This document shows positions 13,568-34,789 of a stretch of DNA of 36,679 bases, in pieces. The DNA comes from Bathymodiolus japonicus methanotrophic gill symbiont. Lineage in GTDB: Bacteria > Pseudomonadota > Gammaproteobacteria > Methylococcales > Methylomonadaceae. A program made the position numbers and the translations under genes. Location of the stretch: NCBI RefSeq assembly GCF_019721995.1, contig NZ_BLYC01000031.1:1-36679 (forward strand). The letters are read 5' to 3'. The notes beneath the pieces were generated by a model that made no database searches, was not told where the DNA came from, and saw only the letters and a list, made by a program, of their open reading frames with translations. Positions within the stretch are counted from its first letter, which is position 1. Every line of letters starts with the position of its first letter.

Positions 13568-13616
13568 CGCTGAAAATCATCACTTCGCTTAGGCTCCGTT
13601 TCCCTGATTTTCAGCG
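13568..13616. repeat. 49-bp solo end of cassette A
   Basis: This short unit has CGCTGAAAATC at the left and its reverse complement GATTTTCAGCG at the right, with the cassette A subterminal sequence between. Both outer flanks (CAAA and, read inward, CCTC) have a C at -4. It could be a minimal palindromic derivative of cassette A. Confidence 0.75.
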
Positions 13617-13807
13617 GAGGTTGGTGATAGGGGTTTAGGAGGTGGGGTTGTATTCTATACGATTGATGATGGACGACATGGTTTAGAGGCTGCGCCAGAT
13701 AAATTAAAGAATCTTGTGTGGGGATGTCATGGTGTTACGGTTGGATTAGGCGGTATAAAAATTGGAGATGGTCGATATAACTCCGATACAATTCTTTACA
13801 ATACATC
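13617..13807 (+). pseudogene. DUF1566-like gene, N-side fragment
   Basis: The open frame GDRGLGGGVVFYTIDDGRHG continues with LEAAPDKLKNLVWGC and ends at YNSDTILYNT. The GGGxVFY...GLEAAP...WGC pattern is typical of DUF1566/Lcl-type extracellular proteins of gammaproteobacteria. There is no start and no stop: the left edge is a solo cassette end and the right edge a full cassette B. The matching C-side piece, NAQIVDEYKLNGYSDW..., lies at 23872-24174. Confidence 0.65.
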
Positions 13808-14067
13808 CGCTGTCAGCCCCGGACGGGCTGATAGTCTCCAGAAGGCGCAGGGAAATTTGCCAATCCGAAGTGCGCGATAGCGCGCGAGGGAGGCTAAAAT
13901 TTTATCCCGAATAGCCGTAGAGCCATTTGTGGTAGCCATGACTGAGCTGCTTTGTGCTCAGTCTGTGGCGGACGCAGGGCGGCTGGAGCATCTCCTATTC
14001 GCTGCGTAGGTGAACGAATTACGGCGACAGGAGTCCCGGAATTTCGTGAGGTAGCATGGCGCGCCTG
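13808..14067 (+). repeat. Cassette B copy
   Basis: A full 260-bp copy, CGCTGTCAGCC to GGCGCGCCTG. The left flank is CATC (C at -4). The left neighbour is a cut gene and the right neighbour the terminal region of repA. Confidence 0.9.
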
Positions 14068-14118
14068 TTACTTTGAGCTTGCCTACTTAATTGAATACTC
14101 ATAGCCCAGTTTCGTATT

Positions 14119-15090
14119 TCACATAGAGCCTTTATTTTGTATAGCTTTTTTCAAATTCCGTATATTATCTTTATTGCCTAGTCGTTCTCTTGCTTGATCG
14201 TATGTTTCTCCAACCCTTGCGTGTTTTTCTATTTCTTTTTTACTTACATGCTTAGGCAACATGTCATGCGATTTTTTATTAACTTCTTGGTGGTCCTCTT
14301 TTCTGCTTATCAAAACCACATCATCTTGAATGCTTACATTGTATTCTGGTAAATGGTTACTTTCAGCAAGCTGCTTCATGTTGAATCGTAGCTTCCTTAT
14401 TGTTGTTACTGTCCCAATTTTTTCTTTAAGGTTTTCTAGTTTTATTTTCCATGCAATTTGGCTGCCACAGTGCTTTCTCGCTAACTCATATATCCTTCGC
14501 TCCGTCGGTTTTCTTAATCTAAAATAGTCTTTATCTATTGTTAGAACTTCATCACCAAGAATCGAATTATAAAACCAGTCCGATAATTTAACTTCTACAA
14601 GAATAGATTTACCGCCTTTATCCTCTTTAACCGTTTCCCAATAATCAATCAAACCAAAATCTCTCGTAATTTCTTTACCATTTGTTTTGATGTTTGTTTG
14701 TATTCTAGTACCGCTCAACCTCTCCAGCGATTCATTAAGCTGTTTATATTGCGTACCACCTGTTTTTTTATTTGTAGATAAAAAATAGTCATAGCTTGTA
14801 AATCTGACAATTTTAGAAATGCACTCACCTTGGTTTTTAGAGTTCATTAGCGAACTCGCTAAATACATTAATATATCTTTATCAAAAATAGTCGCAAGTC
14901 CCGTGTAACTCGGTTTTATCTTGATATTAACCCCTTTATAGTCGTACTCAAGAAGTCGATGATCTGGTTTAGTTGATAAACTAAAAACAGGGTGCTCCAT
15001 TGATGCCAGATCGTCTTTAAACGAATCAAAAATATCACAGATAAAAAAATCTGTTTGTTTATATCTATCGGGCATTAAATTTTTAGTCAT
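14119..15090 (-). CDS. repA: Replication initiator protein A (RPA family)
   Basis: This 323-residue protein resembles plasmid and phage RepA/RPA initiators (PF10134): an N-terminal FFICDIFDSFKDDLASMEHPVFSL opening, central winged-helix regions (YLASSLMN...TSYDYFLSTNK; YFRLRKPTERRIYELARKHCG) and a basic tail. The gene is intact, on the minus strand, 700 bases from the Rep_3 gene and facing it. Two direct repeats directly upstream (15091-15172) are candidate binding sites. Two unrelated initiators this close suggest fusion of two plasmids. The assignment rests on the PTERRIYELARKH region and overall layout. Confidence 0.8.
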   Translation of the reverse strand: MTKNLMPDRYKQTDFFICDIFDSFKDDLASMEHPVFSLSTKPDHRLLEYDYKGVNIKIKPSYTGLATIFDKDILMYLASSLMNSKNQGECISKIVRFTSYDYFLSTNKKTGGTQYKQLNESLERLSGTRIQTNIKTNGKEITRDFGLIDYWETVKEDKGGKSILVEVKLSDWFYNSILGDEVLTIDKDYFRLRKPTERRIYELARKHCGSQIAWKIKLENLKEKIGTVTTIRKLRFNMKQLAESNHLPEYNVSIQDDVVLISRKEDHQEVNKKSHDMLPKHVSKKEIEKHARVGETYDQARERLGNKDNIRNLKKAIQNKGSM

Positions 15091-15172
15091 AGTATCGGCA
15101 TATCAAGAACATTTTTTGTTTTATTCTATCGAACTTTTCATTAAAAGTATCGGCATATTAAGAACATTATAA
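15091..15172 (-). promoter_or_regulatory. Direct repeats upstream of repA
   Basis: Two copies of a ~21-bp unit reading AGTATCGGCATAT followed by AAGAACATT (plus-strand view; one base differs) begin near 15091 and 15149. They overlap the start region of repA, so they could be initiator binding sites, an operator or both. Confidence 0.6.
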
Positions 15173-15254
15173 CTTTAGTAGCATTCTTGGAACGCTTAAA
15201 AAATTACATGATATGAGTATCAAGGGATACAGAAGTTTTTTTAGGCTGTAACTA

Positions 15255-15474
15255 TATCTAACCTGAAGTTTCCCAATTATTGAGTAGCTGAAATACACAA
15301 TGCTGGTGTATCGAGGTTTATTTTAGGTGGTTTTGCCATGTTTATAGCAACCCCCTACTTAATTCCCCTTAGGCAATAGCATTTGAAATGAATGAAAAGA
15401 CTATTTTTTTCATATAGTTGTAGCATAGTTTCAATTTTACCATAAATAATTATTGGGAAACTTCAGTATCTAAC
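15255..15474. mobile_element. MITE with 15-bp inverted ends and 8-bp target duplication
   Basis: The 204-bp element at 15263-15466 has perfect terminal inverted repeats CTGAAGTTTCCCAAT and ATTGGGAAACTTCAG. It is flanked on both sides by TATCTAAC, an exact 8-bp duplication (15255-15262 and 15467-15474). It contains no gene. Eight-base duplications suit several IS families; the parent element is not in the window. The perfect duplication shows a recent, undisturbed insertion. Confidence 0.9.
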
Positions 15475-15620
15475 TTATCTAACTGGATTTCTAAACTTAT
15501 TTTTTTAAACAAAAATCAAAAAAACATATTTTTAAAGTCATCAATGATGATTTTTAATCAATATATCAAACGTTAAATGCTCTACAGTAAACAAAAGTAT
15601 ATCTTTCTATCTCTCACACT
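15475..15620. other. AT-rich gap
   Basis: AT-rich, non-coding sequence between the MITE and cassette A. I see no gene, repeat or clear promoter in it. Confidence 0.4.
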
Positions 15621-15915
15621 CGCTGAAAATCAGGGAAACGTAGCCTAAGCGAAGTGATGATTTTTAGTCCGCGATAGCCGTAGGGCCGTTGTTTTGTCGG
15701 AGTCTGAGCGTTAGCGAAGGTGGAGACAAAATAAAAGGCCATCCGACACGGCGTCAAGTCATTTGGAGCCTATGTTCCGACCCCTTGTTGGGTCGGGACG
15801 AGGTGACGAGGACGAATCGGGGCCGCCGGAGGCATAAGTGGTCGCGTTAAGTTTTTGCTGCTTGCTTGGGCTGGGATGCCCAAAACAAGCTTTCGCAAAA
15901 ATAGCGACTCCCCGA
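15621..15915 (-). repeat. Cassette A copy
   Basis: A full 295-bp copy in reverse orientation, from CGCTGAAAATC to CTCCCCGA. Flanks are CACT (C at -4) and ATTAAAAA. It shows the internal hairpins CGACCC/GGGTCG and GGGC/GCCC. Confidence 0.9.
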
Positions 15916-16018
15916 ATTAAAAATTTAAATCATCTTAAAACAGCTATTAACGATTACTTCTGAATAAAGTTTTAGGTTCCCCTCGATCTCTAATAGAGAG
16001 CACTAAAGATTGATAAAT

Positions 16019-16050
16019 TTCCCTACATCTTCTGGAGACTATCAACCTAT
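16019..16050 (-). repeat. Decayed cassette B end
   Basis: The stretch around TCTTCTGGAGACTATCAACC matches the CGCTG-side of cassette B (CTTCTGGAGACTATCAGCC) but has lost the terminal hairpin. It is an old remnant. Confidence 0.5.
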
Positions 16051-16150
16051 TTAAATCTAATATCGGTTGTTTTAAAGTTACTTACCTTAATTCCTGTTCC
16101 CATCTTAAAGTTTTATTGGAACTTTTTAGATGTTAAAAAATATATTAAAT

Positions 16151-16233
16151 GAGTATCTTTTTAATATTATTTATAGACACACACTAAAAATACGTTATAC
16201 TTTAATTTAGAGTTAAAAAGATATCTTTTTAAC
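16151..16233. promoter_or_regulatory. Partition operator: 22-bp perfect palindrome and half-sites
   Basis: A perfect 22-bp palindrome at 16212-16233 is built from TAAAAAGATA and TATCTTTTTA half-sites; another half-site is at 16154-16163. The same TATCTTTTTA box recurs downstream of the operon at 17282. RHH partition proteins bind such repeated boxes to repress parA and to mark the centromere. A plausible -10 (TATACT) is at about 16196. Confidence 0.65.
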
Positions 16234-16261
16234 ATTTTAAAGATATTAAAAAGGATAGTAA

Positions 16262-16921
16262 ATGCCAAAAATCTATATAGGTGGAAATAAAGGTGGAACT
16301 GGTAAGACCACATTAACTGTTAACCTTGCTGCGCTTTTAGCAAGTCAAAATAAAGATGTAATGATCATTGATGCTGATTTACAAAAATCTTCCACAATGT
16401 GGAATGATGAACGCTCGCAAAAACTTTCAGATGATGTAAAAGAAATTTACAGTGTTCAAAAGCAGTCAGGTGATTTATCGGGTGCGATTAGAGATTTAAA
16501 TAGACGCTATGAGTATGTTTTTTTAGATGCTGCGGGTGTTGATCAAAAAAACCTAAGACATGGTCTAATTACAGCAGACGTTTTTCTTGTGCCATTTAAG
16601 CCGACCCAGTTTGATCTTAATAACCTAATTTTGCTTCAACCAATTATTGAAGAGGCTTTAATTGTAAACCCTGAATTAAACGTTTACGCGGTGATATCTA
16701 TGAGCCCAACAAACCCAAGAGTTAAAGAGGTTGATGAGGCTAAGGATTTTTTAAGAGAATTTCCTCAAATTAGAATTTTAGAGACATTTATCTGTGAACG
16801 CAGTATTTATCATTTATCTGCGTCAGAAGGATTAGGTGTTACAGAGTTAAAAGCAAAAACAGAGTCCAACAAAAAAGCTCAGAAAGAAATTATTAATTTA
16901 TTAAAAGAAATTGGAGTTTAA
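16262..16921 (+). CDS. parA: ParA partition ATPase
   Basis: A 219-residue ParA/MinD-type ATPase. The deviant Walker A motif GGNKGGTGKTT is at residues 7-17 with the signature first lysine; IIDADLQ follows at about 34-40 and the Walker B-like YVFLDAAG at about 85. No N-terminal helix-turn-helix is present, which puts it in the short type Ib group whose partner is an RHH protein. That partner starts 2 bases downstream. ATP-bound ParA would coat the nucleoid and move the partner-bound plasmid. The frame is intact. Confidence 0.9.
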   Translation: MPKIYIGGNKGGTGKTTLTVNLAALLASQNKDVMIIDADLQKSSTMWNDERSQKLSDDVKEIYSVQKQSGDLSGAIRDLNRRYEYVFLDAAGVDQKNLRHGLITADVFLVPFKPTQFDLNNLILLQPIIEEALIVNPELNVYAVISMSPTNPRVKEVDEAKDFLREFPQIRILETFICERSIYHLSASEGLGVTELKAKTESNKKAQKEIINLLKEIGV

Positions 16922-16923
16922 TA

Positions 16924-17262
16924 ATGGCTGTTAAAAAAGCAAGTGCACTGGTAGGAAAACCGCTTGAAGCACAAGAAGAATCAACGAAAGTTGTAACAGC
17001 TAAAAGCTTTACAGCAAAAGGAGGCCTATCACAAGAAGAGTTGTTAAAAAAAGAACAACGTAGAAAAGAAAGAGAAGCCAAAGCACAACAACTCATTGAT
17101 GAGAAAAATCCTAGGGCAAATAAAACTGCGTTATCGATGACAATTCGTTGGAATCAATTTGAATCAGATCAGTTAGAGAAATTACAAGACGCACTAGGGC
17201 TAACAAGAGTTGGCGTTATTCGTTTAGCTGTTAATCAGTTAATAAAAAAAGAGCTGACATAA
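16924..17262 (+). CDS. RHH partition partner (ParB/ParG-like)
   Basis: This 112-residue protein has a long charged flexible head (residues 1-65, rich in Lys, Glu and Gln) and a C-terminal ribbon-helix-helix (TALSMTIRWNQFESDQLEKL, then LTRVGVIRLAVNQLIKKEL). The strand segment ALSMTIRW would enter the DNA groove. It should bind the TATCTTTTTA boxes flanking the operon and stimulate ParA through its head. It starts 2 bases after parA, so translation is coupled. Confidence 0.8.
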   Translation: MAVKKASALVGKPLEAQEESTKVVTAKSFTAKGGLSQEELLKKEQRRKEREAKAQQLIDEKNPRANKTALSMTIRWNQFESDQLEKLQDALGLTRVGVIRLAVNQLIKKELT

Positions 17263-17279
17263 CTTTTTGAGTATTATTT

Positions 17280-17297
17280 AGTATCTTTTTAGATACT
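17280..17297. promoter_or_regulatory. Inverted repeat downstream of the partition genes
   Basis: AGTATCT and AGATACT flank TTTT. The sequence contains the same TATCTTTTTA box as the operator upstream, so it may be part of the centromere as well as, or instead of, a weak terminator. Confidence 0.5.
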
Positions 17298-17540
17298 CAT
17301 TTAATGTATAAAAAGATTGTTTTTAATATATTAAGAATATATGTTTTTTACTTGGATTTTTTATCAACTTATTTTTTTAGAACACCCTATTAAAAACTAG
17401 AATACATCAAAAAAGACGCGAAAATACGTGGAGCCGTTACACTCGACGTTCAAGTTTTCAGATATATACTTCACGCGGTCACGGTTGCGGATTTTGAAAA
17501 CATCTGAAATTTCGGATTTAAAAGTGTCTTTATTTCTTAG
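17298..17540. other. Gap before the Tn3 transposase
   Basis: AT-rich sequence with no recognised gene. The part after about 17400 may hold the missing head of the TnpA reading frame, but it is not open in that frame (stop at 17538). Confidence 0.4.
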
Positions 17541-18512
17541 ATTCAACTAACAGGGGTATTTCAGGGCAACATCACTCGTCAACGCATCAATCAGCAAAAG
17601 CAAATTATTCTCAAACTGTTTGATTATCAAACCAGGTCAATGGAACAGATAATTCAGGTTGAGGCACACATAGGTGAATTGCTCCGATACTACCCCAAAG
17701 TTCATGACGCATTTCGTCAACTACTGGTCTACCTTGATAATCAAAAAATTGTTATTCCGACCTACCGAAGTTTGCAGGATATGTTTACTCAATCCTTTGT
17801 TAATGAACGCGACAGGCTTGATCAGCTCATATTGTTAATGCCCCTTGGGCAACAAGAACAGTTATCTGAATTGATCGACCGGGAAGATGGGATAACCAAG
17901 CTAAACATCATACGTGCCGATCAAAAAAATTTCACCTACACCGCTATCAGTGCTGAGGTTGAAAAGGCATTGGAGCTTGAGGGCTTGTATAAATTTGCAA
18001 AGGGTTTTCTTCCAACCCTTCTGTTATCCAAAAATGCCATTCGTTATTATGCTGATATAGCAGGACAATATGCGGCTTCCCGGTTGAGAAGGTTAGACAA
18101 GCCGCAACAATGGCTGCATGGCCTTTGTTTTATTTATTATCGATATCAACAAATCATGGATAATTTAATCACCAGCTTTATGTACCATACAAGGGCTATT
18201 ACGGTTGATGCGAAGGCTTATGCGAAGAAGGCTGCAGGTGAGTACCATTCTGGCTTGGTTGTTGATTTACCCAAGTTGGCCAAGTTTCTCAAGTGGTTCC
18301 CAAGCCGCAAGTCGGGACTGGATCATGATGAACTAAACCAAGCGGCCTACAAAATATTGCCGGAAGGGCAGTTTCCAGCGTTAGCTCAATTTTTGCAGGG
18401 TAGTACCTTTGACACAAAAGCGTCCATGCGTGAATTTTATTTCAAATCGTCACGTTCATTCGCGCTTTATTTGAGGCCAATTCTACTGGCTGTACCCTTT
18501 GTATTTTACAAA

Positions 18513-18807
18513 TCGGGGAGTCGCTATTTTTGCGAAAGCTTGTTTTGGGCATCCCAGCCCAAGCAAGCAGCAAAAACTTAACGCGACCACTTATGCCTCC
18601 GGCGGCCCCGATTCGTCCTCGTCACCTCGTCCCGACCCAACAAGGGGTCGGAACATAGGCTCCAAATGACTTGACGCCGTGTCGGATGGCCTTTTATTTT
18701 GTCTCCACCTTCGCTAACGCTCAGACTCCGACAAAATAACGGCCCTACGGCTATCGCGGACTAAAAATCATCACTTCGCTTAGGCTACGTTTCCCTGATT
18801 TTCAGCG
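18513..18807 (+). repeat. Cassette A inside tnpA (site 1)
   Basis: A full 295-bp copy, TCGGGGAGTCGC to GATTTTCAGCG. The flanks TTTTACAAA and GAAGACAAC join in frame to read VFYK-EDNDIMALIDL, with no duplicated bases. Read from the CGCTG end the outer bases are CTTC. Confidence 0.95.
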
Positions 18808-19451
18808 GAAGACAACGATATCATGGCGCTCATTGATTTAATGAAAATGCACTATGGTAGTGGCAAAGGCCCATCTACGTTTAAATTACCACAAGATATA
18901 GAAGACACCCTATCAAAGACACAGCTCCCTTATTTGAAAAAAGATTCAGATGATGCGCAGGTAGATCCTCATTTATTCGAGTTTTTCGTTTACCATAAGA
19001 TGTATCGTCGCCTGGATAAAGGCCTGCTCTGTTGTAATGAAAGTGTTTCTTACTGCGACATCGATCATGATTTGATTAGCGATGCATTAGTCGATGATGT
19101 TGAAAAAATAGCCAATGAGTTTGGCTATCCAAAAATTCCAATTTATTGTGATGAACGCTTGGACGCAGCTCTTATGACGCTAGATTCCACATGGAATAGA
19201 ACGACAAAACGAATCAGTGACGGTGAAAATTTAGCGTTCAATATCAAAGAAATGAAAACGGGTGAGCAGCAGGACTGGAGTTTGGGTTATGACAGCCTGG
19301 ATAAATTGGATGATGCTTTTTTCAGAACCCTATCTCAAGTAGAAATACCTAGCATCATGATGTATATAGGTGATCACATTGGCATGTGGCGATCCTTTAC
19401 TCATATGAAAACCCGATACAATAAAAAAAAGACGCCCATAGTATTGGCCAT

Positions 19452-19711
19452 CGCTGTCAGCCCCGGACGGGCTGATAGTCTCCAGAAGGCGCAGGGAAAT
19501 TTGCCAATCCGAAGTGCGCGATAGCGCGCGAGGGAGGCTAAAATTTTATCCCGAATAGCCGTAGAGCCATTTGTGGTAGCCATGACTGAGCTGCTTTGTG
19601 CTCAGTCTGTGGCGGACGCAGGGCGGCTGGAGCATCTCCTATTCGCTGCGTAGGTGAACGAATTACGGCGACAGGAGTCCCGGAATTTCGTGAGGTAGCA
19701 TGGCGCGCCTG
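19452..19711 (+). repeat. Cassette B inside tnpA (site 2)
   Basis: A full 260-bp copy. Removing it joins GTATTGGCCAT to TAATGCTTG, giving PIVLAI-NACILSDAF in frame with no duplication. The outer bases at the CGCTG end are CCAT. Confidence 0.95.
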
Positions 19712-20590
19712 TAATGCTTGTATTTTATCGGATGCTTTTGGTATTGGCATTGAAAAGATGGCTGAGATGTCTGATCTTAATTACAACCTGATGCGTTCAA
19801 CTCATGAAGATTTTATGCGCATAGAGACGTTATGCGCTGCGAATGACATGGTGGGCAACCTGATTCATTCGCTGCCTATTTTTAAACTGTGGAATATAAT
19901 GGATGACAAAATGCTGGCCGATGCTGACGGGCTAAAAATTAGCAACTAGTGAAAGCACCATTCAATCAAGATATTCAAAAAAATATCTTGGAAAATCCCC
20001 AGGGCTATCGATTTATACATTGATTGCAAACTTTGTTGCCGCCAATGCTAAAAATATTGGGCTTAACGAATATGAAGGGCACGCTCTTTACGACGTCATT
20101 CAGGGAAATAAAACAAACATTAACATTGATATGGTGACAGGAGACAATCACTCTCTCAATAAGCTCAACTTCGTCATATTGGATTCTATCGATGTTGATT
20201 ATGTTCCTAGCATTAAAGACATAAAGGACGCGGCAAACAACTTGTATTCAGTAAAAACGACTGACAACTATACTGGGATTATTCGCTCACAGGGAGTCAT
20301 CGATAAAAACCTGATTAAATCGAAAAAAAGCGGCATCTTGCGGGTATTACTTTCTTTACTACTACAAGAAAACACGCAAAGTACCATCGTTAGAAAATTA
20401 AACTCTTATGCGCGTTATACCGGACTTAAAAAAGCACTGATTGAATATAATTCAATATTTAAAAGTACCCATGTGTTAAATTTAATTGATAACATGGCTC
20501 TGCGAAAAGCCATACGAACAGCTAGGAATAGAACGGAGGCTTATCACCAACTACAAGGGCTCATCAGGAAAATTTATCGTGGAATTTTTA

Positions 20591-20885
20591 TCGGGGAGTC
20601 GCTATTTTTGCGAAAGCTTGTTTTGGGCATCCCAGCCCAAGCAAGCAGCAAAAACTTAACGCGACCACTTATGCCTCCGGCGGCCCCGATTCGTCCTCGT
20701 CACCTCGTCCCGACCCAACAAGGGGTCGGAACATAGGCTCCAAATGACTTGACGCCGTGTCGGATGGCCTTTTATTTTGTCTCCACCTTCGCTAACGCTC
20801 AGACTCCGACAAAACAACGGCCCTACGGCTATCGCGGACTAAAAATCTTCACTTCGCTTAGGCTACGTTTCCCTGATTTTCAGCG
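20591..20885 (+). repeat. Cassette A inside tnpA (site 3)
   Basis: A full 295-bp copy. Removal joins GGAATTTTTA to AAGGTAAAAAG, reading YRGIF-KGKKIENNQIS in frame. The outer bases at the CGCTG end are CCTT. Confidence 0.95.
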
Positions 20886-21180
20886 AAGGTAAAAAGATAG
20901 AAAACAATCAAATCAGCGCACATGCAGTAAGGCTCGTTGCAAATTCCATCATCGCCTATAACGCCATTATTTTAAACACCGTTTATGAACGGATGCTTGC
21001 CGCTGGAACGAGCCAGGAAATTGTTGATGAATTTGCCAGAATCTCACCCATTGCCTGGTCGCATATTGCATTCACTGGCAAGTATAATTTTAGAAAAAGC
21101 GATGGTGATATTGATGTAGATGCGATGGTAAATGAGCTTGAAAAACATTTAAAACGGTATTTCTGGAAAGTGGATTAGCT

Positions 21181-21218
21181 CAGAACGAACACTTTTGGGG
21201 GTTCTTCCACAGGACCCC
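21181..21218 (-). repeat. Tn3-type terminal inverted repeat
   Basis: Three bases after the tnpA stop, a 38-bp stretch ends in GACCCC. Read inward it starts GGGGTCCTGTGGAAG, the GGGGTC start and 38-bp length usual for Tn3 ends. Beyond it lies a truncated ISAzo13 gene, so this is the transposon boundary. Confidence 0.55.
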
Positions 21219-23403: not shown

Positions 23404-23662
23404 CAGGCGCGCCATGCTACCTCACGAAATTCCGGGACTCCTGTCGCCGTAATTCGTTCACCTACGCAGCGAATAGGAGATGCTCCAGCCGCCCTGCGTC
23501 CGCCATGACTGAGCACAAAGCAGCTCAGTCATGGCTGCCACAAATGGCTCTACGGCTATTCGGGATAAAATTTTAGCCTCCCTCGCGCGCTATCGCGCAC
23601 TTCGGATTGGCAAATTTCCCTGCGCCTTCTGGAGACTATCAGCCCGTCCGGGGCTGACAGCG
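23404..23662 (-). repeat. Cassette B copy, reverse
   Basis: A 259-bp copy from CAGGCGCGCC to GGCTGACAGCG. Its left neighbour is the end of the duplicated segment and the right a transposase scrap. These do not join into anything known, so this copy marks a recombination joint. The flank at the CGCTG end, read inward, is CATT. Confidence 0.85.
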
Positions 23663-24263: not shown

Positions 24264-25193
24264 GTGAGCCTTTATAACGATTTATGCAACCTTAGGATAG
24301 AGCTTAAACCTTATTACGGACTAACACCCGTTAACACCATTGCAGATTCAACAAGAAAATCATCACAAAAGAATTTAAACCTAAAGCACTCTAATGTACG
24401 GCTCGTTTCTCGACAAAGAATAAATAGCATATTTGAGACACTTGCAACGAGTGATAACTGGATAAACCTATCCATTTACATCGCATTAGCCAGTGGACGG
24501 CGGTGCATCGAGGTTTTATCAACTGGCGACTTTGCTCCAGCCAAGGGATGTAATAGAACAGCGCACATTGAGTTCTCAGGGCAAGCCAAAACAAAAGGTC
24601 GAGATAATGTCGGCGCACTCAATATTCCTATCCTAGTGCCACTCAAGGACTTTAATAAAATATGGAAAAAGCTACGCGAGATACTAAGCCGCTCCATTTT
24701 CCTTGGTAAACCCGTCCCCAACCTTACTCACGACGAGATCAACACAAGCCTGTCAAAGGCTCTCAATAATCGAGTTAAAGCACTGCTGGGCAAGCCGTTT
24801 ACGTTTAAAGACTTAAGAGCTATTTACGCAACAAGCGCTAGCCAGACATTCCATGACCCAAACAAGCGCACGATTGAATCATTCTTTTGCGAGATACTCG
24901 GACATGCAGAGGATGATCTATCAACCCAGTTAAGCTACAAAGGCATCTCTATTGTCGACGAGCTAGACGATGACGCGCTACTTGATGCAGTTGAGCACCT
25001 GAGCACAGAAAGAGTCAGACACAAAGGCGCAATAAGCGTAAACATAGAAAAGCTAAAGCTAAAAGACGCACCTGTCAAACGCACAAACTCAGTGGCTATA
25101 ATCCGCGCTCACGAATTCACAAAGGATACCATCACCAAAAATCCCAGCGCACAAATAACACAAACACTACTCACAAAACTTAAAGCAAAATGA
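24264..25193 (+). CDS. Protelomerase (telomere resolvase) catalytic and C-terminal part
   Basis: The 309 codons align with the catalytic core of N15 TelN-type protelomerases. These enzymes cut and rejoin a palindromic site to make covalently closed hairpin telomeres on linear plasmids. The five active-site residues are visible: arginine in LASGRRCIEV (79/80), lysine in EFSGQAK (109), arginine in KDLRAIYA (185), histidine in EILGH (214) and the nucleophile tyrosine in QLSYKG (225). TelN has the matching segments SGRRMIEI, FSGQAKK, DSRAIYA, EILGH and LHYKQF. TelN is about 630 residues; the N-terminal ~190 that clamp DNA are missing, replaced by a cassette B end at 24188. The GTG start is a track choice; the frame is open to about 24155. 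Likely inactive without the N-terminal domain. Confidence 0.85.
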   Translation: MSLYNDLCNLRIELKPYYGLTPVNTIADSTRKSSQKNLNLKHSNVRLVSRQRINSIFETLATSDNWINLSIYIALASGRRCIEVLSTGDFAPAKGCNRTAHIEFSGQAKTKGRDNVGALNIPILVPLKDFNKIWKKLREILSRSIFLGKPVPNLTHDEINTSLSKALNNRVKALLGKPFTFKDLRAIYATSASQTFHDPNKRTIESFFCEILGHAEDDLSTQLSYKGISIVDELDDDALLDAVEHLSTERVRHKGAISVNIEKLKLKDAPVKRTNSVAIIRAHEFTKDTITKNPSAQITQTLLTKLKAK

Positions 25194-25514: not shown

Positions 25515-25794
25515 CAGGCGCGCCATGCTACCTCACGAAACTCTGGGACTCCTGTCGCCATAATTCGTTCACCTACGCAGCGGATGGGAGATGCCCTGAA
25601 CGTCCTGCGTCCGCAACGACTACGCACAAAAGCCGCTTCGTCATTACTACCTCACTGGCTGGACGGCTATTCGGAATGCAATTCTTGCTCCTCTCGCGTG
25701 CTGCTAGCACACGTCGAATCAGCGAATTGCCCTGTCGCCTATCAGGGACTAAAAATCACCACTTCGCTAAGCTCCGTTTCCATGATTTTCAGCG
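25515..25794 (-). repeat. Cassette C copy 2
   Basis: A full 280-bp copy in reverse, CAGGCGCGCC to GATTTTCAGCG. The outer bases at the CGCTG end are CAGA (C at -4). It is very close to copy 1. Confidence 0.85.
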
Positions 25795-26205: not shown

Positions 26206-26500
26206 TCGGGGAGTCGCTATTTTTGCGAAAGCTTGTTTTGGGCATCCCAGCCCAAGCAAGCAGCAAAAACTTAACGCGACCACTTATGCCTCCGGCGGCC
26301 CCGATTCGTCCTCGTCACCTCGTCCCGACCCAACAAGGGGTCGGAACATAGGCTCCAAATGACTTGACGCCGTGTCGGATGGCCTTTTATTTTGTCTCCA
26401 CCTTCGCTAACGCTCAGACTCCGACAAAATAACGGCCCTACGGCTATCGCGGACTAAAAATCATCACTTCGCTTAGGCTCCGTTTCCCTGATTTTCAGCG
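26206..26500 (+). repeat. Cassette A copy
   Basis: A full 295-bp copy, TCGGGGAG to TTCAGCG. The outer bases at the CGCTG end are CAAG. An IS6 terminus (TGCGACAGAACC, ending 26514) follows 3 bases later. Confidence 0.9.
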
Positions 26501-26542
26501 CTTGCGACAGAACCAGTACGCGCACTAAAATAGGAGCAATAA

Positions 26543-26836
26543 TCGGGGAGTCGCTATTTTTGCGAAAGCTTGTTTTGGGCATCCCAGCCCAAGCAAGCAG
26601 CAAAAACTTAACGCGACCACTTATGCCTCCGGCTGCCCCGATTCGTCCTCGTCACCTCGTCCCGACCCACAAGGGGTCGGAACATAGGCTCCAAATGACT
26701 TGACGCCGTGTCGGATGGCCTTTTATTTTGTCTCCACCTTCGCTAACGCTCAGACTCCGACAAAACAACGGCCCTACGGCTATCGCGGACTAAAAATCAT
26801 CACTTCGCTAAAGCTCCGTTTCCAGGATTTTCAGCG
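26543..26836 (+). repeat. Cassette A copy
   Basis: A 294-bp copy missing one A near 26666 and with one GGC to GCT change. The outer bases at the CGCTG end are CATG. It lies 42 bases after the previous copy, in direct orientation. Confidence 0.9.
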
Positions 26837-26837
26837 C

Positions 26838-27357: not shown

Positions 27358-27454
27358 GGGAGTCGCTATTTTTGCGAAAGCTTGTTTTGGGCATCCCAGC
27401 CCAAGCAAGCAGCAAAAACTTAACGCGACCACTTATGCCTCCGGCGGCCCCGAT
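27358..27454 (+). repeat. Cassette A, left-end fragment
   Basis: About 97 bases from GGGGAGTCGC to GGCCCCGAT, the TCGGGG-side third of cassette A. It is cut on the right by an IS6-type terminus. Confidence 0.85.
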
Positions 27455-27457
27455 CCG

Positions 27458-27731
27458 GGTTCTGTCGCAAAAAATAAATATTTGTGTAAAAATCAACTGT
27501 AACCTGTTTTTATGAAACCAATGGATAAGACATCATCCAGGAGAAAAACTCTCTCATCCTATCATTAAAATTACGATAATATAGTTGTAAAGCCAAGTAG
27601 CATGCGCCATTCAGGAAAATAATAAATTAAAAAATAGTACCATTTTTAGTTGAACACGCGGATCTTCTTTGGCTGAAATTAAATCTTATGATCGTATGTA
27701 ATAGGGTGATTTTGTTTTTTGCGACAGAACC
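27458..27731. mobile_element. MITE-like element with IS6-type ends
   Basis: A 274-bp unit runs from GGTTCTGTCGCAAAAAATAA to TTTTTTGCGACAGAACC, with terminal inverted repeats of about 17 bases and no gene. Its left part matches 8644-8767 in reverse and its right part 29203-29238. It is probably an internally deleted derivative of a second IS6-like element. Confidence 0.65.
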
Positions 27732-28764
27732 ATAAAGCGTCTATAATCCATATTCGTAAAATTGCATCGACCTTTAATGCCTGTAAATTTTCGTTGACCA
27801 AAAGCCACCATGCCATCACATTCACCACTAAAGAGGGAATTTGATTGCGTAGTTTTTTAGCGGTTTTGTTATTATCTGGTATGGTTTGTTTTTTCGCGAT
27901 TTCTTCGAAGCAACGGACTCTTTTTTCAAGTTTATCGAGCAATATGCCCTCAGTTTGCGGCTGGTTATTCAACAATGAAAACGGATGCAGATCCTCTGAC
28001 TCGGTGGTATCAGCCTGTTGTTTTTCAGCGTTCGACAATCGCCTGCCTAATGAAGCCCCCAACCATCGCACGGCATCCTGTTGTGCATGAAAAATATCCG
28101 CCCCCGATTCACACCCAAAACCTGTGATCGCCATTTTTATTAAGGCTTTGGCACGATCCGTCACCGCATGATTAACATGAACACCCAGGCCCTTAAGGCG
28201 TAGCTCTACATGAGTAAACCAGGTATCAAAGCAACGGTCAGTTGCCACACTCTCTAAAATCAAGTAGCCTGAACGTAAATCCATTAAGACTAAAATTAAG
28301 AAATGACCGAAAAAGGTTTCATCCATAGCAACAACTGACTCTCGCGTTGTCCATTCAACCTGGTTTTCACATAGTGTTTGAAACTCCGGCAATAACCCTT
28401 CCATTCTCTGGAGTTGTCTCAGAAAAGTAGACGGTGATGAACCAATGTGCGTATCCATACGAATTAATTTAAAATAATCGGATAACTTATCGGCACCCAC
28501 CCCACATTCAAAGCCAAAATGGTAAATAGTCGCAAAGAATAATAATCGCGTCCACTCATTTCCTGCCTCAGTTTCCCATAGATAAGACTCAGGGTTCTGG
28601 TTGCGCTTCTTTCTAGCATTTTCGCTACGATGAACACTGCTTTTTGTTCCTGAAATGGCTTGGGCTATTTCACGTAAACTTTTTTGTCCGTACTTACTCT
28701 ACAGCGCCCTTAATAATTGATTTTCTAGTCGCCTGTACTTTGGCAGTTGTATTGTTTTTTTCAT
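27732..28764 (-). pseudogene. DDE transposase (DUF6399-like), nonsense mutation and truncated end
   Basis: The minus-strand gene starts at 28764 (MKKTIQLPKYRRLENQLLRAL), has an in-frame TAG after 21 codons, then continues GQKSLREIAQAISGTKSSVHR (a helix-turn-helix) and the catalytic region. MDETFFGHFLILVLMDLRSG gives the first aspartate, VTDRAKALIKMAITG the second, and ADIFHAQQDAVRWLG follows. The pattern matches DUF6399-type transposases. The C-terminus ends at an IS6-like end at 27731. Both defects make it inactive. Confidence 0.75.
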
Positions 28765-28784
28765 ACGATTATCATACAAAATTA

Positions 28785-29127
28785 TCTGCATAACATTAAA
28801 TTTTGTCCCGCTTTAGACGGGAAGCCCAAGATTATTCTAATTGAAGATGGTGCCCCGTATCATGGAAGCGGTGTTGTTAAGGAATTTAAGTTAGCTAATG
28901 TAGATCGTTTGACAGTAGAACGTCTCCCTGCGTTCTCGCCGGATTTTAATCCGATTGAGAAATTATGGAAAAATACGAAACGCGATTCGACTCATATGAA
29001 GTATTTTAAAACTTTTGAAGATCTTCATGATTCAGTTGTGCAAACTTTTAACACTTATATGCATGATGCCAGTAAAGTGATTTGTGTTATGCAAAAATTG
29101 CGGGAAGATTTCGTTGTTACCGCCTAA
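28785..29127 (+). pseudogene. IS630-family transposase, C-terminal half
   Basis: The frame carries the DDE_3 core: ILIEDGAPYHGSG (second aspartate) and LPAFSPDFNPIEKLWKNTKR (glutamate in PIEKLW), and ends normally at REDFVVTA. The first half, with the helix-turn-helix and first aspartate, is absent. Bases 29128-29202 are the 3' flank of the element. Confidence 0.85.
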
Positions 29128-29202
29128 GTTTAAGCGCTCCAAATTTGGAAATTATTTATCTGAGAAACTATAGGTGGGAAAAATAGACGCTTACATAGAT
29201 CC

Positions 29203-29238
29203 GGTAATAGGATTATTTTGTTTTTTTGCGACAGAAAC
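29203..29238 (+). repeat. IS6-like terminus
   Basis: GGTAATAGGATTATTTTG followed by TTTTTTTGCGACAGAAAC matches the right end of the element at 27458-27731 (with the last base changed). It truncates the following gene. Confidence 0.6.
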
Positions 29239-29541
29239 GTATTTCTCGATAAGAATACTACACGCATCAATTATTGATGGACGAACTTCCAATATATAAT
29301 CCATGACTTCCTTATCAATTCGTTCTAAATAGTCTTTGCTGAAATTCTCTCTTGCGTTTTTGTCTGGGAAATCATCTGTTTCTGATACAATCCCTACGAT
29401 AGGAGAAAAGGTCAAGTCTTCAGCTAGGTCGTATTGATTTCTCAAAAAGACCAGCTTTCGACATCCTTCGATAAATTCAATATCGTCGGTCATCAACAGC
29501 AAACAAGTACTAGTAATTTCTTTCTGGGCAATTTCTTCCAT
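29239..29541 (-). pseudogene. DUF2489-like protein lacking its C-terminus
   Basis: The minus-strand frame starts MEEIAQKEITSTCLLLMTDD and contains CRKLVFLRNQYDL, SPIVGIVSETDDFPD and an acidic helical C-terminal part. The ..ETD..P motif and layout resemble DUF2489-type proteins often found next to toxin-type genes. After about 101 residues the frame runs into an IS6-like end. AAGGGGAAA lies before the ATG, and the preceding gene ends 2 bases upstream, so it was the second gene of an operon. Confidence 0.5.
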
Positions 29542-29543
29542 GG

Positions 29544-29593
29544 TTATTTCCCCTTAAGATATTCTTGAACTATCGTTTTGGGTTCAACACGCA
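29544..29593 (-). pseudogene. 3' end of a gene cut by IS3 copy 2
   Basis: The minus strand reads RVEPKTIVQEYLKGK and a stop, 2 bases before the ATG of the DUF2489-like gene. Only the tail survives; the rest is beyond the IS3 insertion. Close spacing suggests a two-gene unit such as a toxin-immunity or toxin-antitoxin pair, but this is not shown. Confidence 0.4.
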
Positions 29594-30898
29594 TATAATC
29601 CCCCAGCAAATCCAGACAAGAAATCAAAGCAATCTTATTCCAAATTAGTTACTATTTGTAAAAAATTGGAGTATTAAAATGAGCAGAAAAAGAACGGTCT
29701 ACAGTGCTGAATTTAAAAGCAAGTTGGTATTAGAAGTTTTAAAGAATGAAAAAACACTGCAAGAAATTGCCAGTGCAAATAACATCACACCTAAGAACCT
29801 ACAAAACTGGAAAAAAATATTCTTAGACAATGCAGAAATAGCAATGGAGCCCTCCAAAGCCGTTAAAGATTACAAAGAGGATCTATTAGCAGCTCAAGAA
29901 CAAAATGAGATGCTCACAAAAATCGTAGGAAAAATGACGGTTGAAAAGGAGTGGCTCGAAAAAAAGCTAAAAAGCTTGGACTCATCTGATAGAAAACAGT
30001 TGATTGAGCCCAAGCTTAACACTCTACCTCTAACACAGCAGTGTGCATTATTAGGATTAAATAGAAGCAATCTCTATTACAAAAAAAGAGAGAATAAAAA
30101 GAAAGAAGAGATCAAAACTCAGATTAATCACATTTTTAAAGACATCCCTATTTATGGTGCGGCTAAAGTACACCAGCAGTTGCTTGAGGTGGTTTTAAAG
30201 TCAGTTTAAACACGGTGGCGAGTTATCGGCAGCAGATGGGCTTGAAAGCCGTATTAGCGGTAAAACAAGTCAATACAACGATCCCCATAAAAGAACATAA
30301 AAAATATACTTATAAGCTTAGAGATCTTGATATATCACACGCTAACCAAGTTTGGAGCACAGATATAACCTATATTAAAACCAAAGAAGGGATGGTTTAT
30401 TTAGCGGCGATTATTGATTGGCACTCAAAAGCAGTGCTCGCCCATAAAATATCAAACACAATGGATTCTTTTTTAGTTATGGATGTATTAGATGAAGCGC
30501 TTTCTCTCTACGGAACACCTGAAATTTTTAATACGGATCAAGGCAGTCAATACACCAGTGAAATTCATACCCAACGACTAAAAAACAAAGGCATTACTAT
30601 TTCTATGGATGGAAAAGGACGAGCAACGGATAATATTTGTATTGAACGGTTTTGGCGAAGTGCAAAATGTGAGCGTATTTATTTAAATGAATATGGTTCA
30701 ATTAGAGCGTTAATAGAAGATGTTGATGACTATATTGAGTTTTATAATCATCAACGGTTTCATGAAACCCTGGACTATAAAAAACCAATGAATGTATATA
30801 GAGAAAGTATTTTAGCTAATGAACAGCAGAATGAAGCGGCTTAGGAATATGGAATAAGGATTGTTGAAAAATCTGTCTTGACTCTTTGGGGTGCTATA
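29594..30898 (+). mobile_element. IS3-family element, copy 2 (frameshifted)
   Basis: This copy is almost identical to that at 6930-8235 but lacks one A at about 30188 (TTGAGGTGG instead of TTGAAGGTGG). The break splits the transposase after residue 170 into frames 29679-30209 and 30215-30844. Not slippery sequence, so this copy is dead. A truncated cassette A abuts its right end. Confidence 0.9.
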
Positions 30899-31154
30899 GC
30901 CCAGCCCAAGCAAGCAGCAAAAACTTAACGCGACCACTTATGCCTCCGGCGGCCCCGATTCGTCCTCGTCACCTCGTCCCGACCCAACAAGGGGTCGGAA
31001 CATAGGCTCCAAATGACTTGACGCCGTGTCGGATGGCCTTTTATTTTGTCTCCACCTTCGCTAACGCTCAGACTCCGACAAAACAACGGCCCTACGGCTA
31101 TCGCGGACTAAAAATCTTCACTTCGCTAAAGCTCCGTTTCCAGGATTTTCAGCG
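30899..31154 (+). repeat. Cassette A, left side removed
   Basis: About 256 bases from GCCCAGCCCAAGC to GATTTTCAGCG. The first ~39 bases were replaced by IS3. The outer bases at the CGCTG end are CATC. An IS6 gene fragment follows. Confidence 0.9.
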
Positions 31155-31343
31155 GATGATGGGCTTTAAAGCGTTTCACTCCGCTCAAGCAACCATTGAT
31201 GGAATTGAAACGGCACATATGATCCGAAAGGGACAGTTGTCTGAGGAAAGTATTCCTGCTTATAAGCAGTTTATGGCTTTAGCAGGATAGTTATGCCTGA
31301 ATACCAGGAGGTCTGCGCTTTTGATAATTATTGCGACAGAACC
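31155..31343 (+). mobile_element. IS6-family element, 3' end fragment
   Basis: It starts at codons MMGFKAFHSAQATIDGIETA, ends with the stop at 31290 and the terminus TGCGACAGAACC at 31343. The left edge is the CGCTG end of cassette A. Confidence 0.85.
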
Positions 31344-31897
31344 ATATCGACTCTATCTGAAAATAAGCCTGCTTAAAGTCTGCATCGTTATTAATTAGAC
31401 TAGCATCAACCCGAACCCCTAGCTTTAAACCATCGCCCGAGGGACTGATAAAGCAAAAAACAATATTAGGTTTTGTTATCAAGTCCGACTTAGCTAAGTG
31501 AACATCTTCCAGATGGTCTAGGTCTACAATCAATAAACCGCTCGACTTCTCGAAAGTCCCATTTTTTACGGACTGACCTAACTTGAATGTACCGTTGAAG
31601 CTAACAGCCTCACAAATAATCGCCTTTTGTTTTTTATAAGCTTTCTCACTTTTCTCTCGCAAATCCCTTAATGATTGAGTAACCGGCTCATATTTAGGGG
31701 ATCTAATCACCAATAACATCATCAAGGGATTTATTAGAGTGGTTTTTCGGAGTGTTTACCCGGGGCATGTATGAAACGTTGCCGATGCCTTTACAATCAG
31801 GTGCAGGGTTCGCTTGACGTTTTGTTTTTGATGTAGATACCCCAGTGGCACAATCGGTGTTATCTTGAATGGGGGTGTTTTTATGTAGTTTATTCAT
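31344..31897 (-). pseudogene. VirE/BT4734-type primase head, frameshifted and truncated
   Basis: The minus strand opens at 31897 with a polar head (MNKLHKNTPIQDNTDC...), reaches SNKSLDDVIGD and a stop near 31703, and continues one frame over as RSPKYEPVTQSLRDLREKSE. It then carries GTFEKSSGLLIVDLDHLEDV and FCFISPSGDGLKLGVRVDAS, the pattern of the BT4734-like (VirE N-terminal) domain found at the front of plasmid and phage primases. An IS6 end removes everything after FQIESI. Probably the primase of a lost replicon part. Confidence 0.65.
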
Positions 31898-32063
31898 GCT
31901 TTTAGCAGAACAACTAGACTTTCTTGAAATACATGATATAATGTATTTGTAGTATTAGAAAATCTTGTTAGATGCTCTGTGTTGTCCTCATAGTTGTCTA
32001 GCAATTAAAGCCCTATAAAGAATCTCCCCGGCTAAAGGTTTCATCTTTATAGTGCGTAGTAAA
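31898..32063. other. Upstream region of the primase-like gene
   Basis: AT-rich, without a gene. TATAATGTAT near 31937 could be a promoter element on either strand. Nothing else is evident. Confidence 0.3.
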
Positions 32064-32159
32064 AATAAGTCCTGCTCCCCATTAATTTATTTTGATGGGG
32101 AGCAGGACTTATTCCATATATCTAGCTGTTTCTCACAGCTATTATATAATATAATAGCT
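32064..32159. other. Cluster of strong inverted repeats
   Basis: Three structures lie in 96 bases: a perfect 19-bp stem at 32064-32082/32095-32113 (arm AATAAGTCCTGCTCCCCAT, 12-base loop), AGCTGT-TTCTC-ACAGCT at 32124-32140, and a 23-bp perfect palindrome with a single central A at 32137-32159 (arm AGCTATTATAT). No T-run follows the stems. They may be a plasmid origin, a recombination or telomere-type site, or a leader structure. Confidence 0.6.
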
Positions 32160-32370
32160 ACTTTATTTTGGATTGCAAGTCTTTTTCAAGATATTTTTAA
32201 CACTTATCCCAAAACCAAGCCTCCTGCCCCACTTATATAAAAAACAGACACCGGTCTAACCCATGCCGGCTTTGCGGTTCTGTTGTATTGAATTAATAAT
32301 CCCCCGATTAGATCTCTTCACCTGCTCTACCCACTCAAAAAATATAGTGAAGCCTGGAGTCCCCCTCGTG
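32160..32370. other. Gap without a gene
   Basis: AT-rich and non-coding on inspection; a GGTTCTGTTGTATTG stretch at 32276 resembles a decayed IS6 terminus. Confidence 0.3.
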
Positions 32371-32440
32371 TTTTGCTGGGAAAGGGGGACAGATGAATAA
32401 GTTGTGTTATATAAACAGTTTATCTGTCCCCTGTTTTTAT
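32371..32440. repeat. Inverted repeat GGGGACAGAT/ATCTGTCCCC
   Basis: Two perfect 10-bp arms near 32386 and 32431 enclose about 35 bases. Together with the GGAGTCCCCCTC upstream this could form a stable RNA or DNA structure at the start of the following frame. Confidence 0.45.
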
Positions 32441-32740
32441 GAATACGTGGGGTGTAGGCTCTTGCTCTGTAATAAACTCACAGATGAACCTTACGGCATA
32501 ATTAAGTCTGTACGACAAAGCCACCAAGGACACCTGTTGGGATGTAAAGCGAGAGTGAGATATGCTCGGATAGCGGGGGAGAGTAGGTCTTGCTTTATGG
32601 CTCGAGTGAGCGGCATACCTAAGGGAGGGATAAATAAAGTATGCTTCAAAGATTCGGGGACTGCTCTCGATAGAGTGGCAGAGGTTATCGAGATAGCTAC
32701 ATTCGCTGAAAATCCTGGAAACGGAGCTTTAGCGAAGTGA
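32393..32740 (+). CDS. Open frame of doubtful coding value
   Basis: The 115-codon frame MNKLCYINSLSVPCFYEYVG... is basic and cysteine-rich and has no recognised domain; from 32704 it is cassette A sequence. The DNA from 32440 to 32703 has a structured, RNA-like look (short self-complementary blocks such as CTCGATAGAG), so it may be part of a structured RNA instead of a gene. I cannot decide between these. Confidence 0.25.
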   Translation: MNKLCYINSLSVPCFYEYVGCRLLLCNKLTDEPYGIIKSVRQSHQGHLLGCKARVRYARIAGESRSCFMARVSGIPKGGINKVCFKDSGTALDRVAEVIEIATFAENPGNGALAK

Positions 32741-32995
32741 AGATTTTTAGTCCGCGATAGCCGTAGGGCCGTTGTTTTGTCGGAGTCTGAGCGTTAGCGA
32801 AGGTGGAGACAAAATAAAAGGCCATCCGACACGGCGTCAAGTCATTTGGAGCCTATGTTCCGACCCCTTGTTGGGTCGGGACGAGGTGACGAGGACGAAT
32901 CGGGGCCGCCGGAGGCATAAGTGGTCGCGTTAAGTTTTTGCTGCTTGCTTGGGCTGGGATGCCCAAAACAAGCCGCAAAAATAGCGACTCCCCGA
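32704..32995 (-). repeat. Cassette A copy
   Basis: A 292-bp copy in reverse, CGCTGAAAATC to CTCCCCGA, with a 3-base deletion near 32973. Flanks are CATT (C at -4) and AAGACT. Confidence 0.9.
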
Positions 32996-33013
32996 AAGAC
33001 TATTTATTTCCTT

Positions 33014-33070
33014 CGCTGAAAATCAGGGAAACGTAGCCTAAGCGAAGTGATGATTTCTAGTCCCCGATTA
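33014..33070 (-). repeat. Cassette A, CGCTG-end fragment
   Basis: About 57 bases, CGCTGAAAATCAGGG to TCCCCGATT, the right end of cassette A joined directly to a CCCCGA-like end, as if the middle were deleted. The flank CCTT has a C at -4. The bases 33071-33168 hold no gene I recognise. Confidence 0.75.
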
Positions 33071-33168
33071 TCATTCAACAATACTCTTCGCTGTTGATAC
33101 GTACCATTTGCCACCGCACCTAGTTTATTCATTCTTTAACTACGCATCCCCTTGGCAGCCCTAACAAT

Positions 33169-33428
33169 CGCTGTCAGCCCCGGACGGGCTGATAGTCTCC
33201 AGAAGGCGCAGGGAAATTTGCCAATCCGAAGTGCGCGATAGCGCGCGAGGGAGGCTAAAATTTTATCCCGAATAGTTGTAGAGCCATTTGTGGTAGCCAT
33301 GACTGAGCTGCTTTGTGCTCAGTCTGTGGCGGACGCAGGGCGGCTGGAGCATCTCCTATTCGCTGCGTAGGTGAACGAATTACGGCGACAGGAGTCCCGG
33401 AATTTCGTGAGGTAGCATGGCGCGCCTG
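33169..33428 (+). repeat. Cassette B copy
   Basis: A full 260-bp copy; flank CAAT (C at -4). The right edge abuts a broken cassette A. Confidence 0.9.
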
Positions 33429-33557
33429 TTGTTGGGTCGGGACGAGGTGACGAGGACGAATCGGGGCCGCCGGAGGCATAAGTGGTCGCGTTAAGTTTTT
33501 GCTGCTTGCTTGGGCTGGGATGCCCAAAACAAGCTTTCGCAAAAATAGCGACTCCCC
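33429..33557 (-). repeat. Cassette A, TCGGGG-end fragment
   Basis: 129 bases from TTGTTGGGTCGGG to GCGACTCCCC, the TCGGGG-side part of cassette A, sandwiched between two cassette B copies. The second B begins inside its terminal C run. Confidence 0.85.
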
Positions 33558-33817
33558 CGCTGTCAGCCCCGGACGGGCTGATAGTCTCCAGAAGGCGCAG
33601 GGAAATTTGCCAATCCGAAGTGCGCGATAGCGCGCGAGGGAGGCTAAAATTTTATCCCGAATAGCCGTAGAGCCATTTGTGGTAGCCATGACTGAGCTGC
33701 TTTGTGCTCAGTCTGTGGCGGACGCAGGGCGGCTGGAGCATCTCCTATTCGCTGCGTAGGTGAACGAATTACGGCGACAGGAGTCCCGGAATTTCGTGAG
33801 GTAGCATGGCGCGCCTG
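33558..33817 (+). repeat. Cassette B copy
   Basis: A full 260-bp copy. On the right it enters the IS6 transposase gene at the YARYG codons, so the IS6 head has been lost to the left. The flank is CCCC. Confidence 0.9.
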
Positions 33818-34789
33818 TATGTCAGGTATGGCGTTTCGTATCGCGACCTTGAAGAAATTATGGAAGAAAGAGGTGTTGAAGTGGATCATGCTACGCTCAA
33901 TCGTTGGGTTATCCGTTATTCTCCTGCCATTGCTGTGAAAGCTAAATCTCAGAAACGAGGAACCAATAAATCGTGGCGCATGGATGAAACGTATATCAAA
34001 GTTATCGGGGAGTCGCTATTTTTGCGAAAGCTTGTTTTGGGCATCCCAGCCCAAGCAAGCAGCAAAAACTTAACGCGACCACTTATGCCTCCGGCGGCCC
34101 CGATTCGTCCTCGTCACCTCGTCCCGACCCAACAAGGGGTCGGAACATAGGCTCCAAATGACTTGACGCCGTGTCGGATGGCCTTTTATTTTGTCTCCAC
34201 CTTCGCTAACGCTCAGACTCCGACAAAACAACGACCCTACGGCTATCGCGGACTAAAAATCTTCACTTCGCTAAAGCTCCGTTTCCAGGATTTTCAGCGA
34301 GGGTCAGTGGACCTATTTATACCGAGCTGTTGATAGTCACGGGGATACGCTTGATTTCATGCTTTCTGAGTACCGTGATGAAGAGGCTGCAACCGCATTT
34401 TTCAAACAAACGATTAACAATAATGGCTTTCCTGATAAGGTCGTTATGGATAAAAGTGGCGCTAACTATGCAGGATTAGCCAATATTAACCTCTTGTTAA
34501 TCCTCGCTGGGTTTGCCACTATGATCGACATATTACAGGTTAAATATTTGAATAACATCATCGAACAGGATCATCGCTTTATCAAAAAAATAACAAAACC
34601 GATGATGTGCTTTAAAGCGTTTCACTCCGCCCAAGCAACAATTGATGGAATTGAAACGGCACATATGATCCGAAAGGGGCAATTGTCTGAGGAAAATATT
34701 CCTGCTTATAAGCAGTTTATGGCTTTAGCAGGATAGTTATGCCTGAAGACCAGGAGGTCTGTGCTTTTGATAATTATTGCGACAGAACC
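33818..34789 (+). pseudogene. IS6-family transposase, headless, interrupted by cassette A
   Basis: The longest IS6 copy. After removal of 34005-34299 it reads YVRYGVSYRDLEEIMEERG, RWVIRYSPAI, then SWRMDETYIKV-KGQW (first catalytic aspartate in MDETY), LYRAVDSHGDTLDFMLS, VVMDKSGANYAG (second aspartate) and IIEQDHRFIKK (glutamate), ending QFMALAG at 34736. The terminus TGCGACAGAACC is at 34778-34789. The first ~20 codons are replaced by cassette B; the missing head is preserved at 4660-4740. Confidence 0.9.
34005..34299 (+). repeat. Cassette A inside the IS6 gene
   Basis: A full 295-bp copy. Removing it joins ATATCAAAGTTA to AGGGTCAGTGG, giving the conserved IS6 motif YIKVKGQW in frame with no duplicated bases. 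The outer bases at the CGCTG end are CCCT. Confidence 0.95.

Follow-up and report, generated by a model that had tools for sequence, protein, structure and literature searches.

The contig NZ_BLYC01000031.1 of the Bathymodiolus japonicus methanotrophic gill symbiont (assembly GCF_019721995.1), whose 36,679 nt we refer to as the window, carries many copies of a short repeated element of 260–295 bp that begins with CGCTG at its left end (Table 1). The copies fall into three abundant families, A (approximately 295 bp), B (260 bp) and C (280 bp), with a rarer family, D, represented by four complete copies in our first sample. Left hairpins and bodies are interchangeable among the four families: C joins an A-type left hairpin to a B-type body, and D joins a different hairpin to an A-type body. 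The left hairpin starts 2 nt (CG) inside the end and, on the CGCTG-first strand, pairs CTG with TAG using one G·T pair in A, B, D and relatives, whereas the bodies of all four families hold a common structured core of around 160 nt. No protein gene was recognised in the elements by Pfam scans covering 20 of the 37 listed open reading frames (ORFs) of the window, and chance frames do cross the copies.

The initial annotation of the window proposed that a C lies four bases outside the CGCTG terminus at all but one of about 23 ends. Searching with the CGCTG pattern located 22 ends, 21 of which have C at position −4, and the copy at 11900 (flank ACTT) is indeed the sole exception. We extended the count to a 1.63-Mb sample of the 4.97-Mb genome (G000), the window included, in which 390 copies are complete, that is, have both ends in the searched form; of 465 left ends, 75 were left out for lack of such a right end. 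The C is present in 384 of the 390 complete copies, comprising 215 of 221 in the discovery contigs and 169 of 169 in the hold-out contigs C3–C6, which were fetched once the rule had been seen (binomial p < 1e-99 in each set), and in 369 of 375 after removal of repeated left flanks. By comparison, 25.8% of 3,429 other CGCTG sites in the sample have C at this position. Base frequencies over these flanks place 1.87 bits of information at −4 and just 0.09–0.34 bits at −3 to −1, the enrichment that the annotation had anticipated. C is depleted at −5 (4.5% versus a background of 21%), G is depleted at −1 (3.8%) and −3 (10%), T is favoured at −1 (49%), and C is found at −3 in four of the six copies that break the rule. 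No comparable rule was seen in the outer flank of the right end; the fixed base stands beside one end only, as first described.

Table 1 Element copies and partial copies in the window. For full copies, ends were located by the CGCTG pattern and cores by model R2; the left flank is the four bases outside the CGCTG end.
Feature	Position	Strand	Left flank	Remarks
A-type left hairpin alone	1610..1656	+	CGGA	
B element	6083..6341	+	CCAA	CGCTGTCAGCC...CGCGCCTG
A-type left end	8872..8903	+	CTCC	No right end or core found
B element	10567..10826	+	CAAC	Empty site found (looser search)
C element	11900..12179	+	ACTT	Exception; A-type left hairpin joined to B-type core and right end
Solo palindrome	13568..13616	.	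CAAA / CCTC	Head-to-head pair of A-type left ends; both flanks have C at −4
B element	13808..14067	+	CATC	
A element	15621..15915	+	CACT	CGCTGAAAATC...GCGACTCCCCGA
A element	18513..18807	-	CTTC	
B element	19452..19711	+	CCAT	Adjoins Tn3-type transposase fragment (Pfam match starts directly after)
A element	20591..20885	-	CCTT	
B element	23404..23662	-	CATT	
C element	25515..25794	-	CAGA	
A element	26206..26500	-	CAAG	
A element	26543..26836	-	CATG	
A element	30952..31154	-	CATC	Left end 31154, core end 30952; right end not of searched form
A element	32704..32995	+	CATT	
A-type left hairpin alone	33014..33060	+	CCTT	
B element	33169..33428	+	CAAT	
B element	33558..33817	+	CCCC	Directly after A fragment (33429-33557)
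A element	34005..34299	-	CCCT	

The same base is kept outside the symbiont. The left end could be placed for 56 of 75 model matches at loci mostly from other genomes, a list with at least two loci entered twice, and 52 of the 56 have C at −4; one of the four misses (L206) is a copy interrupted by a group II intron. From the single-contig genome G337, which belongs to another family, we sampled 20 stretches of 20 kb picked near listed copies; 80 of the 82 left ends in them have the C, and C at −5 is likewise scarce. The C(−4) target rule is real.

To place the C relative to the insertion event, we sought un-inserted versions with exactly abutting left and right flanks in the genome sample. Such strict empty sites were found for 159 of the 390 copies, and C at −4 was already there in 156 of them (142 of 145 distinct targets), indicating that the C is part of the target, as the annotation had held. 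Because the flanks abut, there is no target duplication at the 159 checked sites; across all 390 copies, left and right flanks share three bases in 13 and four bases in 3. A looser search returned empty sites for 90 of 224 copies, 86 of the 90 with the same boundaries. Most full copies are 98–100% alike, which together with the 159 empty sites in repeated DNA indicates recent activity in this genome. These data bear on the idea that a single insertion sequence, now extinct, left the copies behind as ordinary decay products, with the C as a relic of its transposase and no living system behind it. That no autonomous copy was found would suit such an origin, but the near-identical copies and filled sites speak of recent movement and the core has been kept with compensatory change across a class, making it very unlikely.

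The element's own right terminus shows a matching feature, with its last four bases starting with C in all 159 copies that have a strict empty site (CCTG 93, CCGA 47, CCAA 7, CCGC 7, CCGT 3, CCAT 1 and CCTA 1). In A copies of the genome sample the last two bases vary (GA 103, AA 23, GC 18, GT 6, CG 2, AT 1), a variation that tracks sub-lineage only in part. Clean junctions, a folded end and one fixed base outside one end could also be read as the work of a site-specific recombinase, acting either on an integron-like folded single-strand substrate or as a tyrosine recombinase with a short core. Integron cassettes insert 3′ of a G (GTT core), whereas G next to the end is depleted here and not required. 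Target and element share no core sequence beyond one base, and clean junctions formed with nothing but the single C in common leave a recombinase, one of the options the annotation had raised, highly improbable.

Element orientation follows GC skew. Contigs with positive skew hold 80 plus-strand and 19 minus-strand copies, 66 and 10, and 33 and 3, respectively, whereas those with negative skew hold 4 and 31, and 16 and 40. Over the contigs counted, the CGCTG-first strand reads as leading-strand sequence in 288 copies versus 74 (around 80%), compared with approximately 57% leading for ORFs of the same contigs, and the same bias appears in G337 across both skew halves (68 versus 14). The CGCTG-first strand is therefore inserted mostly into the lagging-strand template. 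Relative to the nearest ORF, elements are more often antisense than sense (215 versus 147 in the genome sample, loci L061–L100 and L219–L258).

The core is predicted to fold on this same CGCTG-first strand and includes invariant U·G pairs. Among 16 sequences, two of them from the symbiont itself, 17 of 41 predicted pairs are changed on both sides, as are 20 of 45 among six A/D-type sequences. Over 71 distinct core sequences, 92.4% of cells are paired, and double changes number 594 versus 184 in shuffles and 59–122 in slid controls, although this alignment was fitted to the model and its counts thus lean towards structure. Such a core exceeds what an IS200/IS605 derivative needs and may act as RNA. 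It is possible, and we put this forward tentatively, that these are a family of protein-free elements across a class in which the ~160-nt core serves as a working RNA or a folded single DNA strand that aids target choice or processing with a host enzyme, so that the C-N-N-N^ rule is kept across distant gammaproteobacterial families.

An RNA route, in which the structured RNA is inserted into single-stranded fork DNA and reverse transcribed in trans much as a group II intron would be, appears unlikely. It would account for the structured core with its invariant U·G pairs, the absence of duplication and the lagging-strand-template bias, and group II introns are present in relatives, even within left hairpins. 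Group II introns are themselves fork-targeted with a strand bias, and they choose targets by pairing over several bases. No match to their domain V (RF00029) was found in the window, nor in the cores of elements at 20 loci, however, and the flanks lack a multi-base conserved stretch of that kind; the elements are also much shorter than group II introns. Similarly, a search of Rfam gave no match to the core in the window or in the 20 loci.

We consider the probable explanation to be single-strand, fork-coupled transposition like that of IS200/IS605, in which non-autonomous elements are moved in trans and inserted at a degenerate CNNN^ site. According to PMC6006769, IS608-type single-strand transposons choose a tetranucleotide target through a DNA guide beside a hairpin, and IS200/IS605 elements are cleaved 3′ of a four-base site at both the left end and the right terminus. 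Consistent with this scheme, the elements share with IS608, ISDra2 and the palindrome-associated transposable elements (PATEs) clean insertion without target duplication (judged at the strict empty sites of 159 of the 390 copies), a preference for the lagging-strand template and a hairpin near the end, and we propose that they are likewise cut 3′ of a four-base site at left end and right terminus. A HUH-type single-strand route is favoured by the fork strand bias, by the hairpin 2 nt inside the end and by the C that lies at an equal distance from the element's right terminus; with the clean junctions, these features fit the peel-and-paste cycle of IS608 and ISDra2 as set out in PMC6006769. The end-specific choice of target without duplication suggested by the annotation thus stands, and of the HUH systems it named, the IS200/IS605 style is favoured and IS91 is unsupported.

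In such a cycle, an enzyme supplied in trans would fold the CGCTG-first strand and bind it in two places, the left hairpin and a structure of the right end. It would nick on the 3′ side of two CNNN sites, one at the left junction and one forming the terminus of the element (CCTG or CCGA). Joining of the nicked ends would give a single-stranded circle, which could then be pasted in at a replication fork, 3′ of a CNNN that is accessible in the single-stranded DNA there. The route would be that of IS200/IS605, with one strong base and weak preferences replacing the fixed tetranucleotide. The enzyme, the circle and the sequence of events are inferred.

Several observations weigh against this explanation. 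The 2 nt (CG) between the left cut and the stem are too few for a 4-nt guide, whereas in both IS608 and repetitive extragenic palindrome (REP) units a guide of that length lies 5′ of the hairpin foot, according to PMC6006769 and PMC8266576. The C at the right end belongs to a fixed motif and travels with the element, so its 159 of 159 rests on few independent lineages, and the strict empty-site criterion is blind to messy junctions. No tandem right–left junction was present in 0.84 Mb of the symbiont genome. The strand bias is absent from the window contig (9 plus, 7 minus) and from C6 (20 and 22), a contig with skew near zero, and the bias would equally suit other elements that target forks, group II introns among them. 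At each Y1 transposase locus that we inspected (L101, L104, L108, L110 and L123, and L171 of a relative) the ends differ from those of the element, and a left-end scan reaching 1.5 kb around the inspected loci and around 28 relatives' Y1 loci revealed ordinary copies, with no gene between matching ends. Further departures from IS200/IS605 are the single strongly fixed base in place of a 4–5-nt target, the large conserved core, and that no TnpA with these ends, and no TnpB match (PF07282) in the symbiont genome, was found.

The Y1 search of the symbiont genome gave 29 matches at E up to 1, 21 of them over the cut-off, comprising IS200-like genes, an intact gene resembling a REP-associated tyrosine transposase (RAYT) at L108, a broken one at L123 and some unrelated weak matches. 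None of those inspected has the element's ends, and a screen of 0.84 Mb for long copies likewise gave no Y1 gene with them. The L108 gene encodes 222 amino acids and lies between AAAGGGGACG and CGTCCCCTTT hairpins. One reading takes the element for an enlarged REP unit that a TnpAREP-like protein, such as this one, mobilises. In its support, the copies are many and end in a hairpin, mobilisation is presumably in trans, the genome holds an intact RAYT-like gene and, according to PMC8266576, TnpAREP cuts REP units at CT or CA, which comes closest to a C-holding site this short. However, the left hairpins lack the GTAG or GTGG foot, the element's C stands four bases before the cut, and 260–295 bp with a multi-helix core contrasts with REP units of 21–65 nt; the L108 gene has its own, different hairpins, and no element hairpin copies flank the genes at L108 or L123. 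We regard mobilisation as a REP unit as improbable. Since no enzyme with these ends was found, membership in either IS200/IS605 or REP is not established.

Other candidates for the enzyme were examined and set aside. In the first sample, the pattern search found no right end within 330 bp of 41 of the 245 left ends; some are A copies ending in CCCCA that the pattern missed, the rest look shortened, nested or interrupted, and no gene between matching ends was seen among them. The Y1 gene at L171 sits among pieces of a D-type element and belongs to an IS200-like element that has ends of its own and has inserted into a broken copy. Clustering of ORFs around 168 loci gave large clusters that are frames through the element or ordinary genes, with no transposase shared. 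A HUH/Y1 motif scan of the genome sample, the 20 G337 stretches and 19 other loci returned the L108 gene and one unconvincing frame, and a relative's RAYT-like gene with CGCTGG hairpins beside GTA/TAC (L177) was judged by eye to belong to a different REP type.

Comparison with further systems yielded partial likenesses. HEARO and omega-RNA elements (IscB, TnpB) are also mobile, with a conserved structured RNA-like core and many gene-less copies, but here neither an Rfam nor a TnpB match was found, and the IscB search returned nothing while its control was silent too. For IS91, no Y2 transposase match (Y2_Tnp) was found in the symbiont genome at E up to 1, with a weak control that detected 2 of 14 genomes. 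Helitrons insert between A and T and have a 3′ CTRR end, which the flank base frequencies here do not show.

The solo palindrome at 13568–13616 may be a minimal mobile form of the element. The window also encodes a telomere resolvase (ResT/TelK, 24264–25193), and genes for Rep3, RPA and ParA lie on the same contig, suggesting that the window may be a linear plasmid. Plasmid relatives of the resolvase are 28–29% identical and mostly annotated as protelomerase among the matches listed. Tandem 22-nt repeats at 12440–12571, iteron-like, lie just upstream of the Rep3 gene.

Model R1, with the best 8–9 candidates scored per genome, detected the core within the order in 83 of 301 genomes, spread over 29 of 50 genera. 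Within the class, 33 of 369 genomes and 27 of 272 genera gave matches, with 3 of these 33 genomes belonging to the order itself. A phylum sample searched with model R2, scoring 7 candidates per genome, returned the symbiont's own genome only (1 of 398); the same model picks up 12 of 12 known carriers once as many as 150 candidates are scored, which makes this phylum negative weak. A similarity search with element B found matches in 18 of 151 genomes of the family, and exact pattern matches occur in Methylotuvimicrobium buryatense 5G, Methylomonas, Methylomicrobium and Methylicorpusculum, among others. Copies also reside in plasmid records of Methyloprofundus, Methylobacter and Methylomonas, and these carriers suggest a methanotrophic host. 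The A element had no match in a phage collection; among viral contigs none has the A pattern and two have the gamma left-end pattern, the IMG/VR contigs L378 and L379, each with a gamma-type element copy. In two other genomes, group II intron 3′ ends (RF00029) lie inside A-type left hairpins (L206 and L215). UmuC-like polymerase genes, identified by eye and motif, lie near elements at L298, L309 and L362 of one Methylicorpusculum metagenome-assembled genome. Literature searches, limited to open-access sources, found no description of the element.

The elements make up around 7% of the sampled symbiont sequence (390 copies of approximately 280 bp in 1.63 Mb), and the distant G337 holds at least 150 copies, indicating that the element shapes genomes at large scale. 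One base kept at distance four together with precise insertion would amount to a nearly unrestricted, strand-specific DNA paster, and its enzyme and the role of the core are testable in culturable methanotroph carriers.

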